Source of the DNA: Luidia sarsii
Lineage: Eukaryota; Echinodermata; Asteroidea; Paxillosida; Luidiidae
Assembly (NCBI GenBank): GCA_949987565.1
Contig: OX465102.1
Span: 8,482,512-8,546,511, forward strand
Length of the DNA: 64,000 nucleotides
Direction of reading: 5' to 3'
Part shown: one piece after another, positions 36,030 through 44,602 of the stretch
How the letters are laid out: the number at the start of each line of letters is the position of its first letter
Numbering within the stretch: position 1 is the first letter of the stretch
Translations under genes and position numbers: made by a program
The notes under the pieces: generated by a model
Told to the model about the DNA's origin: nothing
Database searches by the model: none
What the model saw: only the letters and a program-made list of their open reading frames with translations

Positions 36030-38690
36030 GTATGTGAACATTTTGATTCAGTTGGACTGAGAACATGACGTTCAGCAACGTTCTTTGAACGTGAGATATA
36101 CGTTGTCTGTGAACATTTTGATTTTGGACCAAGAACATGACGTTCAGCAACGTCTGATCCTTTGACCGTTGAATGAACGTTGTCTGTGAACATTTTGATT
36201 ATGGACTGAAAACATGAAGTTCAGCAGCGCCCTCTGAACGACCTTTGAACGTTGTTTGTGAACATTTTGATTTGAGAACGAAAACATGACGTTCAGCAAC
36301 GTCCTTTGAACGTTAAATGAACGTTGTCTGTGAACATTTTGATTTTGGACTGAGAACATGACGTTCAGCAACGTCCTCTGAACTACATTTAAACGTTGTT
36401 TGTGAACATTTTGATTTTGGATCGAAAACATGACGTTCAGCAACGTCCTTTGAACGTTGAATGAGCGATGTCTGAACATTTTGATTTTGGACCGAAAAAC
36501 ACATGACGTTCAGCAACGTCCTCTGAACGTTAAATGAGCGTTGTCTGTGAACATTTTGATTTTGGACCAAGAACAAGACGTTCAGCAACGTCCTTTAAAC
36601 GTTGTCTGTGAACATTTTGATTTTGGACTGAGAACATGGCGTTCAGCAACGTCCTCTGAACGTTGTTTGTGAACATTTTGATTTTGGACCGAAAATATGA
36701 CGTTCAGCAACGTCCTTCAAACGTTAAATAAACGTTGTCTGTGAACATTTTGATTTTGGACCGAAAACAAGACGTTCAGCAACGTCCTCTGAACGATGTT
36801 TGTGAACATTTTGATGTTGGACCGAAAACATGACGTTCGGCAACGTCCTCTGAACGACCTTTGAACGTTGTTTGTGAACATTTTGATTTTCGACCGAGAA
36901 CATGACGTTCAGCAACGTCCTTTAAACGTTAAATGAACGTTGTCTGTGAACATTTTGATTTTGGACCGCAAACATGACGTTCAGCAACGTCCTTTAAACG
37001 TCGATATCGAACGTTGTCTGTGAACATTTTGATTTTGGACCAAGAACATGACGTTCAGCAACGTCCTCTGAACATTAAATGAACGCTGTCTGTGAACATT
37101 TTGATTTTGGACCAAGAACTTGACGTTCAGCAACGTCCTCTGAACGTTACTAAATGAACGTTGTATGTGAACATTTTGCTTTGGACAGAGAACAGATCTC
37201 AGCAACGTCCTTTGAACGTTAAATGAACGTTGTCTGTGAACATTTTGATTTTGGACCGAGAACGCATGACGTTCAGCAACGTCCTCTGAACGTTGTTTGT
37301 GAACATTTTGATTTTGGACAGAAAACATGACGTTCAGCAACGTCCTCTGATCGTTAGATGAAAGTTGTCTGTGAACATTTTGATTTTGGACCGCAAACAT
37401 GACGTTCGGCAACGTCCTGTGAACGACCTTTGAACGTTGTTTGTGAACATTTTGCTTTTGGACCGAGAACATGACGTTCAGCAACGTCCTTTGAACGTTG
37501 AATGAACGTTGTCTTTGAACATTTTGATTTTGGACCAAGAACATGACGTTCAGCAACGTCCTTTGAACGTTGAATGAACGTTGTCTGTGAACATTTTAAT
37601 TTTGGACTGCAAACATGACGTTCAGCAACGTCCTTTGAACGTTAAATGTCGAACGTTGTCTGTGAACATTTTGATTTTGGACCAAGAACATGACGTTCAG
37701 CAACGTCCTCTGAACATTTAATGAACGTTGTCTGTGAACATTTTTATTTTGGACCAAGAACATGACGTTCAGCAACGTCCTCTGAACGTTACTAAATGAA
37801 CGTTGTCTGTGAACATTTTGCTTTGGACAGAGAACAGATCTCAGCAACGTCCTCTGAACGTTAAATGAACGTTGTCTGTGAATATTTTGATTTTGGACCG
37901 AGAACGCATGACGTTCAACAACGTCCTTTGTACGTTGTCTGTGAACATTTTGATTTTGGACTGAGAACGCATGACGTTCAGCAACGTCCTGTGAACGTTC
38001 TTTGAACGTTGTCTGTGAACATTTTGGTTTGGACCAAGAACATGACGTTCAACAACGTCCTCTGAACGTCCTCTGTGAACATTTTGATTTTGAACTGAGA
38101 ACGCATGACGTTCAGCAACGTCCTCTGAACGTTGTCTGTGAACATTTTGTTTTGGACCAAGAACATGACGTTAAACAACGTCCTCTGAACGTTGTCTGTG
38201 AACATTTTGATATTGGACAAAGATCGCATGACGTTCAACAACGTCCTCAGAGTTAAATGAACGTTGTCAGCGAACATTTTTTTTTTGGACCAAGAACATG
38301 AAGTTCAGCAACGTCCTCTGAACGTTAAATGAACGTTGTTTGTGAACATTTTGATTTTGGACCAAGAACATCACTTTCAGCAACGTACTCTGAACGTCCT
38401 CTGAACGTTGTCTGTGAACATTTTGATTTTGGACCGAAAACATGACGTTCAGCAACGTCCTCTGAACGTCGTCTTAACGTTGTCTTTGAACATTTTGATA
38501 TTGGACCGAAAACATGACGTTCAACAACGTCCTTTGAACGTCTTTTGAACGTTGTCTGTGAACATTTTGATTTTGGACTGAAAACATGACGTTCAGCAAC
38601 GTCCTTTGAACGTCTTCTGAACGTTGTCTTTAAACATTTTGATTTTGGACCGAAAAAATGACGTTCAGCAACGTTCTTTGAACGTTAAAG
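36030..38690. repeat. Minisatellite, units of about 55-75 bp, roughly 40 copies
   Basis: Head-to-tail variants of GACGTTCAGCAACGTCCTCT, GAACGTTAAATGAACGTTGT and CTGTGAACATTTTGATTTTG fill 2.66 kb. Units differ mainly by presence of a GAACGTTAAAT insert. Each unit contains nested inverted motifs (ACGTT..AACGT). Because the common long form is near 72 bp, the minus strand shows periodic open frames (24-residue VMFSVQNQNVHRQRSFNVQR-type repeats). No start context or non-repeat domain supports a protein. Confidence 0.95.
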
Positions 38691-38941: not shown

Positions 38942-38950
38942 GCAAAATGT
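38942..38950. repeat. Target-site duplication of RecQ transposon, left
   Basis: GCAAAATGT directly abuts the left TIR, and the same 9 bp directly follows the right TIR at 44,577-44,585. Confidence 0.85.
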
Positions 38951-39024
38951 TAGGCTGGTTCCCGTCCCCTACATGGTCTCCAGACGTCTCACGTCCTCCG
39001 AAATGTAGGGGCCGGTAGCTAGCA
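38951..39024. repeat. Left 74-bp TIR of RecQ transposon
   Basis: It starts TAGGCTGGTTCCCGTCCCCT and ends GGCCGGTAGCTAGCA, and is identical over all 74 bp to the reverse complement of 44,503-44,576. Within it CCCCTACAT (38,966-38,974) and ATGTAGGGG (39,003-39,011) form a hairpin stem. Confidence 0.92.
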
Positions 39025-39842
39025 AAAAATATCGGAGGAAAGCTGACGGTCTTATGCTAATGAGGCTTGCCATTCCCAGAATGCAATACTGTCAGGTGAC
39101 TAAACTTGGGCCGGCTTTCTCCTATTCCGAAAATGTCCGGAAAACTCCGAAACCATTTTCGATAACTTTCGGATCGTAATTGCTACTATCGGTAATTTCC
39201 GGCTGTGTTGTTCAGCTGATCAGCTGGATATCAGCTGGGAAATCAAGGTCACACGTGCCGCTATAAACATGATGACAACATGATGATCATGGATTCGCAT
39301 GCAGATATTATTGAGTTTTCGCTCAAATCGAAGCTGTCCTTAGGTAAAATCAATGTGAGGCGAAACACCGAATATTCGTTTTTGAAACCAAAGCAGGCAT
39401 TGTGTCTGAAAAGTTCTCTCCAAGGTGATACTCTGGCAGTTTTGCCGACCGGGTACGGGAAGAGTTTGATCTTCGAACTGTTGCCGCTGATGACGACGAA
39501 GCGAGGGGCATCGCCATCGAGTATCGTTTTATGCTCTCCGTTGAACTCCATAATCGAGGAACAGCTGACCAGGTAATCACTTCAGAGTTCAGTATGTTAA
39601 AATTAAAATGAACATATATTTTGAGTTTGGGCCTGACTGGATCTAGGAGTATAGGAGTAGGAATTCCCTATTCTTTTGAGTTTTGTACTGTTTTTTTCCT
39701 ATGATGAGTATGACACTATTGTATTGACACTGACACTGACAGTATGACTTTGACACTAACAGTGACAGTATGACTATGACTAGTATATATATGGCCTGTG
39801 ATTATTACTATTTAGTATTTTAGTAATAGTAGTATATTTATA

Positions 39843-39915
39843 ATATAGTCCAGTAACTTGGACCCGACAAGTCACCCTTTTTTGTTCGAAATTTGGAATT
39901 TGGAGGGTTGGGTGT
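39843..39915. repeat. Partial MITE relative in RecQ intron 1
   Basis: CAGTAACTTGGACCCGACAA then GTCACCC and GGAATTTGGAGGGTTGGGTG, matching the arm of the element at 24.9-25.1 kb. Confidence 0.65.
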
Positions 39916-42762
39916 CACCATGCCATTAATTTTTTTTTATCATCCGACATGGGTGATGCTGGTATGAGGGAATTTGCATTCAAGTCTCTAAGTTTAACAA
40001 GCAGTTTTATTAAGTTTTATGATCAGTACTTACAGTTACACAAGAGATTGTGTAAACAAGTTCAGCCCTAGGCTATGGTACCCGACAATGCTACATCGAT
40101 CGTAAATGATCAAAAGCTATAACTGTATTAACTTAAATAAATTCATTCAATAGTACTACTATACAAGTAACTGGGGTGAATAATTAGATCCATGTTAAAA
40201 AGCACGATAAGCATCCAGATGATCATTCACTAAATTGACTAAGTCAGTAAGTGTTATTTCTTCCACTTCCACTTTCAGATACGGTGCGCAAGCTATTCAT
40301 GTGAACAGCGACTTAATTGGGTGCCTGTCAAGGACAGATCAACCTCAAAATGCTACCATGACAGCTTTCAAAGATACAAGCTTCAGCTACATCATTGGTC
40401 ACCCTGAGCAGCTTTTAGATAAGCATGTGTGTGATGTGTTTGTAACTGAGACATTCCAGAATAATGTGACACATGTAGTAATAGATGAAGCACACAGTAT
40501 TCTTCAGTGGGGAACAGATTTCAGGCCTGACTTCAAAAAACTATCCAAACTCAGATCCATCTTTCCAGGAGCAAACTTCCTTGCCCTCACAGCAACAGCC
40601 ACCAAGACTGCATGTGATGAAATATTTCATTGCTTGGGATGAAATCTACTACAGTCCTGACATCAAGCATTGACAGGTCCAACGTCAAATTCAGAGTTCA
40701 GCAGAGACCACCCTTGAAATGAACACATGATGCCGAACACTCATTCAACAGTGTCATGGATCCGCTGGTGAAAGAGCTGGTTTCAAGACAGGAACAGTTC
40801 CCGAAAACAATCATCTACTCAAAATTAAAAGTATGTGGAGCCGGTTATGAAAAGTGCCAGCAAGAGGCAGTCTCTAAAGATGTACCTGTAAAAGAACTAG
40901 TATCCCAGTACCATGCTGCATCCACAATTGAGGTAAGCACATGTATATCCTCGGAGCATGCATCCACAAACTTGAATTGTTAAGTACTTTGAGTTTATTG
41001 TTTTCAGGAAAACTTACTGCTTACAAGCGAATCCATAACACTGCTGAAAGAGATTTCAACATCATGTAGGCCTAATAATGGTCTTTTTTTCTTTTCTTTT
41101 TTGACTGTAAATTTGATGCTTTGCCTGTCTGGAAAGTGATTTCATTTCAAGCAGTGACCAGATCTTGTCACATTAAGATTTGGTGGCTGTTGCTGTGGCA
41201 AGGAAGATTACTCAGACTGGCACCCAATTTAGTTGTTGACCACATGACTAGCATGTGCTCAGTACATGTATGTATCTGGAAAAAATAAACACCTTATTAT
41301 TCCATGTGGTTACATTCTGTTACTCAATGCCAAGTTTCCTTTTTTTTTTTTTAATATACATGTACATGTAGATGAAAAAGAAAGTTGTGAATGACATGGC
41401 CAAAAAAGGGAGCAGGCTGAAATTACTGTTTGCTACTGAGGCCTATAGTATGGGCACAGACGCTCCAGATGTCCGTAGAATTGTGCATATAGGCCCACCA
41501 TCTACTCTGGAAAGTAAGTAATCCTTTAATGTTGAAGTTTGGACCATTAACTTAAGTTTGTTTTAAGTTGTCACTACATGTACACCTCTTAGTCTTACAT
41601 ATTCATGATCAAAGGTCAAATTTTTATTGGACCATCCACCATCATGTGCATGTACCGGTACATGTACCATCCAGTATTTGTGCTGTTCACAAGGTGGACA
41701 TGCGAGCTTCATGAACGGAATAAATATGCATGCTTTGATGAACTATTGCCCAGACATGTGGGTGATAATTCATCTGGGCATGCACTTTAATTTGCGACTT
41801 GATTGAGGAACTGTTTGTTGTACTGGTGCAGTACCCTCGCAGGAATATTGCCCTCCATGAAGCTACACAGTTGAAAAGATGGCTGTTCAGTGTTCACACT
41901 ACAGTTGTGGAGCCACACAAGTTAGCTGAATATGTGTACATGTATAAGTGTAGTGAAACAAGTATACCTTGGTTTGGGGGGGGGGGTTGAATAGTTATTT
42001 TTAGCTCACCCTCAGTTCTGTAACCTTGGGAAATTGGTTCCCTCGGTTTTACCACAGGGACTAATTCTTCAGTTTCCAATACCTTTGGGACATGAAACCA
42101 TGTTGTTTTTTTGTACTGTGCTCCAACAGGGGTCCCTTGGAATGACATAGGTATTACAACAGGGACTAGAGAAATGTACCCTCAAGCAAGTTACTCTGAT
42201 GTGGCTTCAATGCCAACCTGCCAAAACTGTGAAACTTTAATGACAGCAGGAAGTTCATTTCCCCAACTATCAATCAGCAGTATAGATAAGAAATACATTG
42301 ATTGACAATTGCATGTGAATATAAAGTTATAGCTATTGCAGATACATGTACATTTACATGTTACAACCAGAGTTTACCTGTGATTGAATGCATTCATTTA
42401 GATCCAGAACAAAATTGAGGAGACTAATTCCATGACACTGATTACAGGGTGAGGCTTCATTTTGGGGACCTTTAAGAAAATGTTCCTTTTACACCCCCAC
42501 CAAAAAAAGAAAAAAGAAAACTGGCCTGGTTTGGCCCCGCCCTTGTATCCTCTCCCACATGCCCATGGTATTCTGGCACAATAACACTGTTTATTACATG
42601 TACTTACTTTTATGCATCATATTTCAGCATACATTCAAGAGACAGGTAGAGCTGGACGTGATGGTCTTTCAAGTGAAGCCATTCTTCATTTCAACAATAA
42701 TGATGTGGCAAAGAACATCCCAGGAATGACAGATGGTGTCAGAGAGTACTGCAGATCAACTA

Positions 42763-43039
42763 ATATAGGAAGGTTTGCGGTGAACACCATGTATCGGGTC
42801 TCTTAAAGGAAGGGGTATGGTTCTGAAAAGAACCTGAGGGTAACTCGACGTTTCGACCAGTATGTTCTGGCCGTCATCAGGAGAATGGTGACGGCCAGAG
42901 CATACTGCTCGAAACGTCGAGTTACCCTCAGGTTCTTTTCAGAACCATACCTCTTCCTTTAAGAGACCCGATACATGGTGTTCACCGCAAACCTTCCTAT
43001 ATTGATTCACCCACCATGCAAAACCTTAAGTCTCATTTC
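42763..43039. mobile_element. Foldback insertion with 12-bp TSD in the RecQ zinc-binding exon
   Basis: The arms 42,763-42,876 and 42,889-43,002 are inverted copies with about three mismatches in 114 bp, followed by a 37-bp tail (TGATTCACCCACCATGC..). GCAGATCAACTA flanks the insert at 42,751-42,762 and 43,040-43,051. Removing the insert and one copy restores the RecQ frame from REYCRST into CRRQFLC. On the minus strand the left arm reads CTGATGACGGCCAGAACATA then CTGGTCGAAACGTCGAG, resembling a hammerhead ribozyme core. Confidence 0.88.
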
Positions 43040-43488
43040 GCAGATCAACTACTTGTAGAAGGCAGTTTCTGTGTGAGCATTTTGGCTCTGTCTTGAATCA
43101 GTTACCTAATGAGATTTCCCATAACTGCTGTGACATATGTGAACAAAAATGTCAGTGTCCTGACTGTGAACTAAAAGCTGCTTTAGATGATCAGCTTTTG
43201 CTTGACTGTTCAGATAATGAATATCCTATTCTCAAGGACCTACTTACACAGTACATGGCAGCTGAAAATGCTGAAGTTTGTGAAATGTACACTGGACTTT
43301 CAGATAAGTTGGTAACCGATATTATTAAATTGTTTCATGAGTGGTGTTTAATTCCTGATGCAACATTACTAAAATTCAGATTTCCTTTCATTAAAGATTC
43401 TTACATTGAGAATATTGTGTCAATACTTGCCGAATACAAACGTCTTTAGCAAGACCAATTGAAAATGTTCTAGTACAGTCAAATTTTA

Positions 43489-43593
43489 AAATTTAGTGGG
43501 CCTGATGTTTCAATCCTAGCAGGACCTTTCTCAGGACACGTGATCCTTTGAGAAAGGTCCTGCTAGGATCGAAACGTCAGGCCCACTTAATTT
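43489..43593. repeat. Foldback repeat of the GAAACGTCAGGCCCAC family
   Basis: Inverted arms of about 46 bp (43,489-43,534 and 43,546-43,593), read as AAATTTAGTGGGCCTGATGT and its mirror ending ACGTCAGGCCCACTTAATTT, around GGACACGTGATCC. It lies 40 bp after the RecQ stop codon. Half copies occur at 1.72, 21.98 and 55.31 kb. Confidence 0.85.
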
Positions 43594-43843
43594 TGAGATT
43601 TGCATTTTGGTATTTTTAGTCAGTAAGCAGTTTGCAACATTCTTGAATATCACTTTACAGTCAAATTTTGATCGGAAGAGCACTGTTTTTTGTTTTTCTT
43701 TGTTTCAACTGCCCAGACCAACCTTTCCCCCTGCCCACACCCCATCCCAACATTTTGGCTCAGTCATTTAATTATATTCCTAATAATTGCTGTGACATAA
43801 TAATAGTGTCAACATCTATGTTAGTGTCCTGAATGTGAATAAA

Positions 43844-44356
43844 TCAGTTGTACTGGTGGTCATCTTTGGGGCCTAGTCTTTGTTCCTCTTGGATAGGCAA
43901 GAGTGCATCCTTTGTACCGATTTTAATAACACTAGAAGGCCCCAAAGAATATGCAGACTTAGATATTATTGCCTGTCTCTCACTCTTGCTGAATGTGTCA
44001 CGCTGGGGCTTGGTAGACTTTGCTGCGTCCAAAATCACATGATGATAGTTGCAGTTGTTTATGATTTTCCTTGGCTGTTTTTTAGTTTGCATTTTTTTTG
44101 TCTTTGAGTATGTGTGGCAGCTAATTTCGCGGTTTTTTCAGCCTGGGGTGTAGTCATTGGTGACCGTGCGCAATTTCTGCATAGAGCCCCTTCTACAAAG
44201 TTAATCCCCCCCGTACTTCATGATTTTTTCTGACAACTTTTTCCGCATCCCTACTATTGACTGAATCATTACTTTGTCTGCCGAGTCACTTCCGCAAGAA
44301 ACACAACTTTTCCTCAGATTTACCTGCTTTTTCGGGGTAATCGGCTGAGCATTCAT
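43844..44356 (-). pseudogene. Zinc-binding ORF convergent with RecQ, frameshifted
   Basis: From ATG at 44356 the frame reads MNAQPITPKKQVNLRKSCVS with CVSCG, then RKKLSEKIMKYGG. A G7 run near 44,205 shifts it into a frame reading INFVEGALCRNCAR, and an A8 run near 44,090 shifts it again into CNYHHVILDAAKSTKPQRD and SAYSLGPSSVIKIGTKDALL to a stop at 43,844. The spacing CxxC ... CxxC over about 45 residues suggests a small zinc domain, followed by a basic region. Both breaks are at homopolymers, so a real shared frame of about 170 codons is likely. I do not recognise the family. Position inside the TIRs makes it a candidate DNA-binding partner for transposition; that is inference. Confidence 0.5.
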
Positions 44357-44502
44357 GGTTATTATTGTGCGTGAAGGAACGTTCTCCTAGATCCATGTGC
44401 TGCGCTGTCAAAATACGCACATGTAAACATTACATCATCTCTATAAGTAGAAAAAATAAAGGCGCATGCGCAAAACTGAACCAATCACAGGCCGTGGATG
44501 GC

Positions 44503-44576
44503 TGCTAGCTACCGGCCCCTACATTTCGGAGGACGTGAGACGTCTGGAGACCATGTAGGGGACGGGAACCAGCCTA
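44503..44576. repeat. Right 74-bp TIR of RecQ transposon
   Basis: Exact reverse complement of 38,951-39,024, followed at once by the second GCAAAATGT (44,577-44,585). Confidence 0.92.
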
Positions 44577-44602
44577 GCAAAATGTGTGCACGCGCGCGGG
44601 GA

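Follow-up and report, generated by a model that had tools for sequence, protein, structure and literature searches.

Structure of the element and its broken helicase gene

The window analysed here is a 64,000-nucleotide stretch of the genome of the sea star Luidia sarsii (assembly GCA_949987565.1, contig OX465102.1, forward-strand positions 8,482,512 to 8,546,511), and our subject is a transposon of 5,626 bp at window positions 38951-44576, whose main gene encodes a RecQ-like helicase. Inverted-repeat matching gave perfect terminal inverted repeats (TIRs) of 74 bp, identical to each other, at 38951-39024 (plus strand) and 44503-44576 (minus strand), starting with TAGGCTGGTTC. Directly outside them the 9-bp sequence GCAAAATGT is repeated exactly at 38942-38950 and 44577-44585 as a target site duplication (TSD). 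An earlier note, made from the sequence of the window alone, had drawn the same outline, ends and duplication, and these are correct.

The RecQ-like gene lies on the plus strand and has at least four exons. Exon 1 (39278-39572) contains LPTGYGKS, which we take to be helicase motif I, and exon 2 (40279-40932) contains a DEAH box; both were located in a Pfam scan, exon 1 by a DEAD match. Exon 3 (41372-41513) and the first part of exon 4 (42628-42762, with the motif ETGRAGRDG) were placed by translation and protein search, and exon 4 continues at 43040-43449 with the RecQ zinc-binding region and the C-terminus, where the RecQ_Zn_bind match stays under its cut-off. The joined exon peptides matched TIGR00614 with E=2.9e-63 and 214.3 bits, slightly missing the curated cut-off of 219.8, and matched bacterial RecQ (PDB 4tmu) with E=1.8e-39. 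The gene is broken, as the earlier note had also proposed for this multi-exon RecQ. In exon 2 the reading frame breaks at about 40634-40640 and an in-frame stop follows at 40720-40722, and exon 4 is split by a mostly palindromic insertion of 277 bp (42763-43039; foldback arms 42762-42879 and 42886-43003 plus a short tail) with the 12-bp repeat GCAGATCAACTA on both sides.

The minus strand holds a partial open reading frame (ORF) with CxxC motifs close to the right end, which we call the zinc ORF; the earlier note had listed it, and it is real. The ORF list and an alignment place its first part, with a CxxC motif, at 44201-44356; its second part, at 43844-44137, includes a dispersed repeat at about 43864-43948 (limits by eye). 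The frame begins just within the right end and heads inward. The note's statement that no transposase is visible agrees with the Pfam scan of five window ORFs, which returned no transposase family.

The element contains two near-perfect foldback palindromes, one inside the RecQ exon (42762-43003) and one 3' of the RecQ stop (43480-43602), the latter a dispersed repeat found by inverted-repeat matching; similar stretches of both occur at other loci. Moreover, 43755-43839 is a second copy of the RecQ zinc-binding stretch 43093-43170 with 76-82% identity, an arrangement that recombination between two related elements could have produced.

Copies of the element and probable movement of a dead copy

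Searching the genome with the window TIR gave at least 41 matches, a lower bound since 40 of the 461 first-look candidates were scored, and 20 loci around matches were taken for study. The TIR structure is not a product of chance, because it recurs at so many places. Elements of 384-392 bp occupy 14 of the 20 loci; they are deletion derivatives that join ~256 bp from the left of this element to ~131 bp from its right, and their median pairwise difference is 1.8% (91 pairs). The remaining loci hold elements of 110-917 bp, except for locus L009. There, C7:23827272-23833179 holds another full-length RecQ element, 5,908 bp long, which has perfect TIRs and the exact 9-bp TSD GTGGAGGAT and is referred to below as the C7 copy. 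Its extra sequence relative to the window copy is mainly more zinc ORF, as judged by alignment and translation, and two of its blocks are absent near 43844-44137 in the window copy. No transposase core was found in the window copy or in the C7 copy.

TSDs were tallied for 22 TIR-bounded elements, comprising the window element and those at the 20 loci, with two elements counted at L025, one at L013 despite its two left ends, and the pair formed by the outermost ends at L025 left out. Sixteen elements have exact 9-bp TSDs and two have exact 10-bp TSDs (L010 and one L025 element). Three are imperfect, namely L015 with 10 bp and one mismatch, and L017 and L027 with 9 bp and two mismatches each; L022 has none. 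Two of the loci hold compound insertions of the window family. The insertion at L013:255-897 has two left ends with identical 15 bases before each, and at L025:6797-7290 there are two elements separated by about 100 bp, whose TSDs measure 10 bp in one and 9 bp in the other.

Neither of the results that would have spoken against the earlier note, a TIR present nowhere else in the genome or RecQ copies outside these TIRs, was obtained. At the DNA level, a 700-bp query from the RecQ exons matched only the window and C7 copies (2 of 2 candidates scored), which are near-identical and both lie between these TIRs, and a RecQ protein search (41 of 41) found the same two copies and an exon-1 fragment inside L010, a 917-bp derivative. 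All three lesions (frame break, stop and palindromic insertion) are common to the two full-length copies despite their different TSDs (GCAAAATGT and GTGGAGGAT). Substitutions between them number 8 in 1,626 exon sites and 31 in 3,978 other sites, rates that do not differ significantly (Fisher p=0.29), and there are 14 indel events. When the 3-kb flanks of the window copy were compared with the 272 and 321 bp available beside the C7 copy, only a low-complexity repeat of the ACATGT type matched (68-94%). The lesions are probably older than both insertions, and recent mobilisation in trans of a dead copy is the simplest reading. Since the same lesions stand at different targets, the dead element has probably moved in trans, as the earlier note had supposed for an already non-coding copy.

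The zinc ORF was likewise used to search the genome, with 150 of 333 candidates scored, so that the following count is again a lower bound. At least 37 matches were obtained, from which 11 additional loci were drawn. Eight of these (L045-L052) bear end sequences of the window family; L045 is a derivative of 1,094 bp in which the zinc frame extends for 36 residues before a stop. The other three, L053-L055, were rejected: they match only the tail of the zinc ORF, i.e. the dispersed repeat, and the ORFs listed for L053 and L054 show no transposon core.

A second family with RecQ and DUF6589

The RecQ protein search also yielded four equal-scoring intact open frames, among others, with about 30% identity to the window RecQ. 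A genome search with the Pfam family DUF6589 gave 12 matches at six places (15 of 15 candidates scored), and five of the six have a convergent RecQ frame at a distance of about 3 kb. DUF6589 was absent from all 14 control genomes searched. Four of the places are long elements of 14.7-15.6 kb, here called family 2, with convergent and intact-looking RecQ and DUF6589 frames. DUF6589 has the same layout as the zinc ORF of the window element, beginning just within the right end and heading inward. The fifth pair lies at the start of contig C2, and the remaining DUF6589 place, C2:3726405-3727192, has no RecQ match nearby.

All four long copies have exact 9-bp TSDs, which are all different: TATGTAACG at C7:5766952-5781655, GGTACGGTG at C7:17708977-17723689, CATTTTACA at C10:7872076-7887660 and GTTCACCAG at C10:8644540-8660124. 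Their right ends are 100% identical across 157 bp, so the copies look recent, and family 2 is probably active or recently active. In the copy at C7:5766952, 12,456 of 14,704 bp were read, i.e. all but the left 2,248 bp; the longest exon read there matches DUF6589 with E=8.8e-28. The family-2 left end was not found inside a 13.8-kb C7 stretch; its position is 2.2 kb beyond that stretch. Left and right ends are more divergent in this family, with 71-80% identity between arms in short derivatives. A derivative of 3.7 kb at C10:7234699 has the TSD ACATCGGAG when its right end is set 2 bp outside the match, which starts at query base 3, and the 9-bp flanks of three short derivatives, read by eye, agree at 8, 8 and 6 of 9 bases.

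The termini of family 2 read TAGTCTAGG(T/C)TC and those of the window family TAGGCTGGTTC; they align as TAGGCT-GGTTC / TAGTCTAGGTTC with one gap, and the TIRs of the two families differ past about 12 bases. Whether other copies encode a transposase, as the earlier note had asked, is answered only in an indirect way, by a family that pairs RecQ with DUF6589 and has similar termini and 9-bp TSDs. We suggest that family 2 is a probable example of the autonomous form.

Outside the family-2 right end at L056 (L056:6038-6311) lies a palindrome with arms of 137 nt, which has dozens of genome matches, with 40 of 3,321 candidates scored. It contains GGTTCGAATCC, which we assume to resemble a tRNA B box, and it is perhaps a tRNA-derived palindromic repeat.

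Relationships of the RecQ proteins

Two RecQ trees were built, with 45 and 30 rows picked from 120 listed matches together with the window RecQ, and family 2 was added in the second. The root serves for drawing only. Mytilus, Ptychodera and Pinctada contribute the RecQ-like proteins with which the window RecQ clusters in both trees. The family-2 RecQ lies elsewhere on the same side of the tree, where a weakly supported grouping (85/60) joins it to a coral protein, and a 100/100 split parts both from the insect and nematode WRN-like rows and the bacterial rows. Some rows on the transposon side of this split have host-like names (P0046 'BLM', P0064 'WRN-like'). With chromosomal RecQ genes of the sea star itself not separately represented among the rows, the trees are compatible with an old host origin of the transposon RecQ. 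Other RecQ matches in the genome, about 30-52% identical or short, lie at C2:21729739, C10:18419408-18422550, C1:22172007, C12:11270735, C18:2363144, C20:4097334 and C15:8196540, and some of them may be the host's own RecQ genes.

Discussion

The AcademH lineage of the Academ superfamily was reportedly set out by Kojima in 2020 (Mob DNA 11:15). In the published description, AcademH elements are animal TIR transposons with a helicase gene and TSDs of 9 or 10 bp, whereas AcademX elements of the same superfamily have a nuclease instead of a helicase and TSDs of 3 or 4 bp, a difference in TSD length that is tied there to helicase versus nuclease (PMC10045372). In our data, 18 of the 22 window-family elements and all four long family-2 copies have exact TSDs of these lengths, and the window element encodes a helicase of the RecQ/SF2 kind, although this gene is broken in the window copy. 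Because TSDs of 9 or 10 bp together with RecQ match the published signature, we consider it likely that the window element is a defective, non-autonomous DNA transposon of AcademH type, i.e. of the helicase lineage of Academ. It differs from AcademH as described in being defective and without a transposase. Hence, the undescribed element class that the earlier note had entertained is not needed, and its premise of RecQ being normally absent from cut-and-paste elements is contradicted in print: PMC3627910 lists 'RecQ Helicase in Academ', and helicases are described for AcademH (PMC10045372) and KolobokH (PMC9587614).

RecQ in cut-and-paste elements is already known, and the remaining point of interest is its pairing with DUF6589. 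The ancestor of the window element probably had two convergent genes, RecQ at the left and, reading inward from the right, a gene beginning with the zinc ORF, which was probably the transposase gene. The transposase half would then have been lost and the ends would still be recognised. By its position and orientation, the zinc ORF is a probable first exon of this lost gene. A transposase made elsewhere would recognise the 74-bp ends, excise the element and join it at staggered breaks of 9 bp, and RecQ from intact elements would probably unwind or remodel DNA while excision or repair takes place. The likely family for this transposase would be DUF6589, which is convergent with RecQ in elements of this genome that look intact. 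A more specific proposal, which we hold to be about as probable as its opposite, is that DUF6589 is the DDE transposase of RecQ-helicase transposons. Convergent RecQ and DUF6589 would then form a mobility module that two or more RecQ sub-lineages of a single genome have conserved, with RecQ as an obligate partner that sets the 9-10-bp stagger or resolves an excision intermediate, and such a pair would move the window family in trans.

On the two-gene reading, the window element shows how a 'RecQ-only' transposon can originate, namely by loss of the transposase half from a two-gene helicase transposon whose ends stay recognisable. Moreover, the four near-identical full-length elements with RecQ and DUF6589 could serve to study the part that RecQ plays in cut-and-paste transposition and to probe DUF6589 as the transposase. 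No paper naming DUF6589 was found in the literature searched; the putative DUF6589 transposase may already be described for AcademH under another name.

Several points weigh against this interpretation. The assignment to AcademH is taken solely from the published description of TSD and helicase. That DUF6589 is a transposase family is itself an inference. Compared ungapped, the termini of the two families differ at 4 of the first 11 bases, which is over the single mismatch allowed when Repbase groups elements by termini, as stated in PMC4455052. The family-2 RecQ belongs to a different sub-lineage from the window RecQ, and family 2 therefore need not be the helper of the window family. Among the loci examined, none held an autonomous copy bearing the TIR of the window element. 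For the zinc ORF, five peptides matched no Pfam family, and protein homologues numbered 0 of 274 candidates at E<=1 and 0 of 694 at E<=10. Its extension in L045 has no BLASTP similarity to the N-terminal exon of the family-2 DUF6589 (E=0.92). Finally, none of the 11 additional zinc-ORF loci has RecQ by tblastn or is a DUF6589 place.

The element might instead be a non-autonomous member of another superfamily with 9-bp TSDs, for example a MuDR-like one, into which a host RecQ gene was taken up as a passenger; we regard this as unlikely. MuDR elements also make TSDs of 9 bp, no transposase was found in the window element, and the trees described above are compatible with a host origin of RecQ. 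MuDR-type transposase was absent from the Pfam scans of five window ORFs and five zinc-ORF peptides, the genome not having been searched for it. However, TSDs of 10 bp occur too, as published for AcademH (PMC10045372), the window RecQ falls with marine-invertebrate RecQ-like proteins on its side of the 100/100 split, and the RecQ frames next closest to it within the sea star genome are short or share only about 30% identity. In addition, a second family with 9-bp TSDs carries RecQ, so RecQ is no one-off. The earlier note had left the choice between machinery and captured passenger undecided; our data support RecQ as belonging to the element rather than as a one-off passenger. To our knowledge, Helitrons do not have a TIR and TSD structure of the kind seen here. 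They resemble the window element in being helicase-bearing transposons and differ from it by their HUH nuclease and single-stranded transposition (PMC12730594). Identity with KolobokH, i.e. a Kolobok DNA transposon with RecQ, is extremely improbable, even though KolobokH encodes RecQ downstream of its transposase, on the complementary strand in Kolobok-1_CCri. Kolobok has TTAA-specific TSDs of 4 bp, and KolobokH is known in that account from fungi only (PMC9587614). The TSDs here are of 9-10 bp with none read as TTAA-based, and they refute this identity.

With the AcademH-type reading kept, the lesions common to the window and C7 copies could still have been shared by gene conversion or segmental duplication, in place of trans-mobilisation of a dead copy. 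The two copies agree at about 99.3% of aligned sites, and this alone would be compatible with conversion. Each copy nevertheless has its own exact 9-bp TSD, and the flanks match only at the ACATGT-type repeat, which speaks against segmental duplication. Gene-less short derivatives also have TSDs of their own, so that trans-mobilisation operates anyway, and we consider conversion or duplication quite improbable.

Neighbouring sequence

An Rfam scan at gathering scores gave no match in the window. Directly to the left of the element, at 36033-38689, lies a minisatellite of 2.6 kb with units of 72 bp and higher periods of 144 and 216 bp, the last 360 bp of which hold an open frame of 119 codons on the minus strand.

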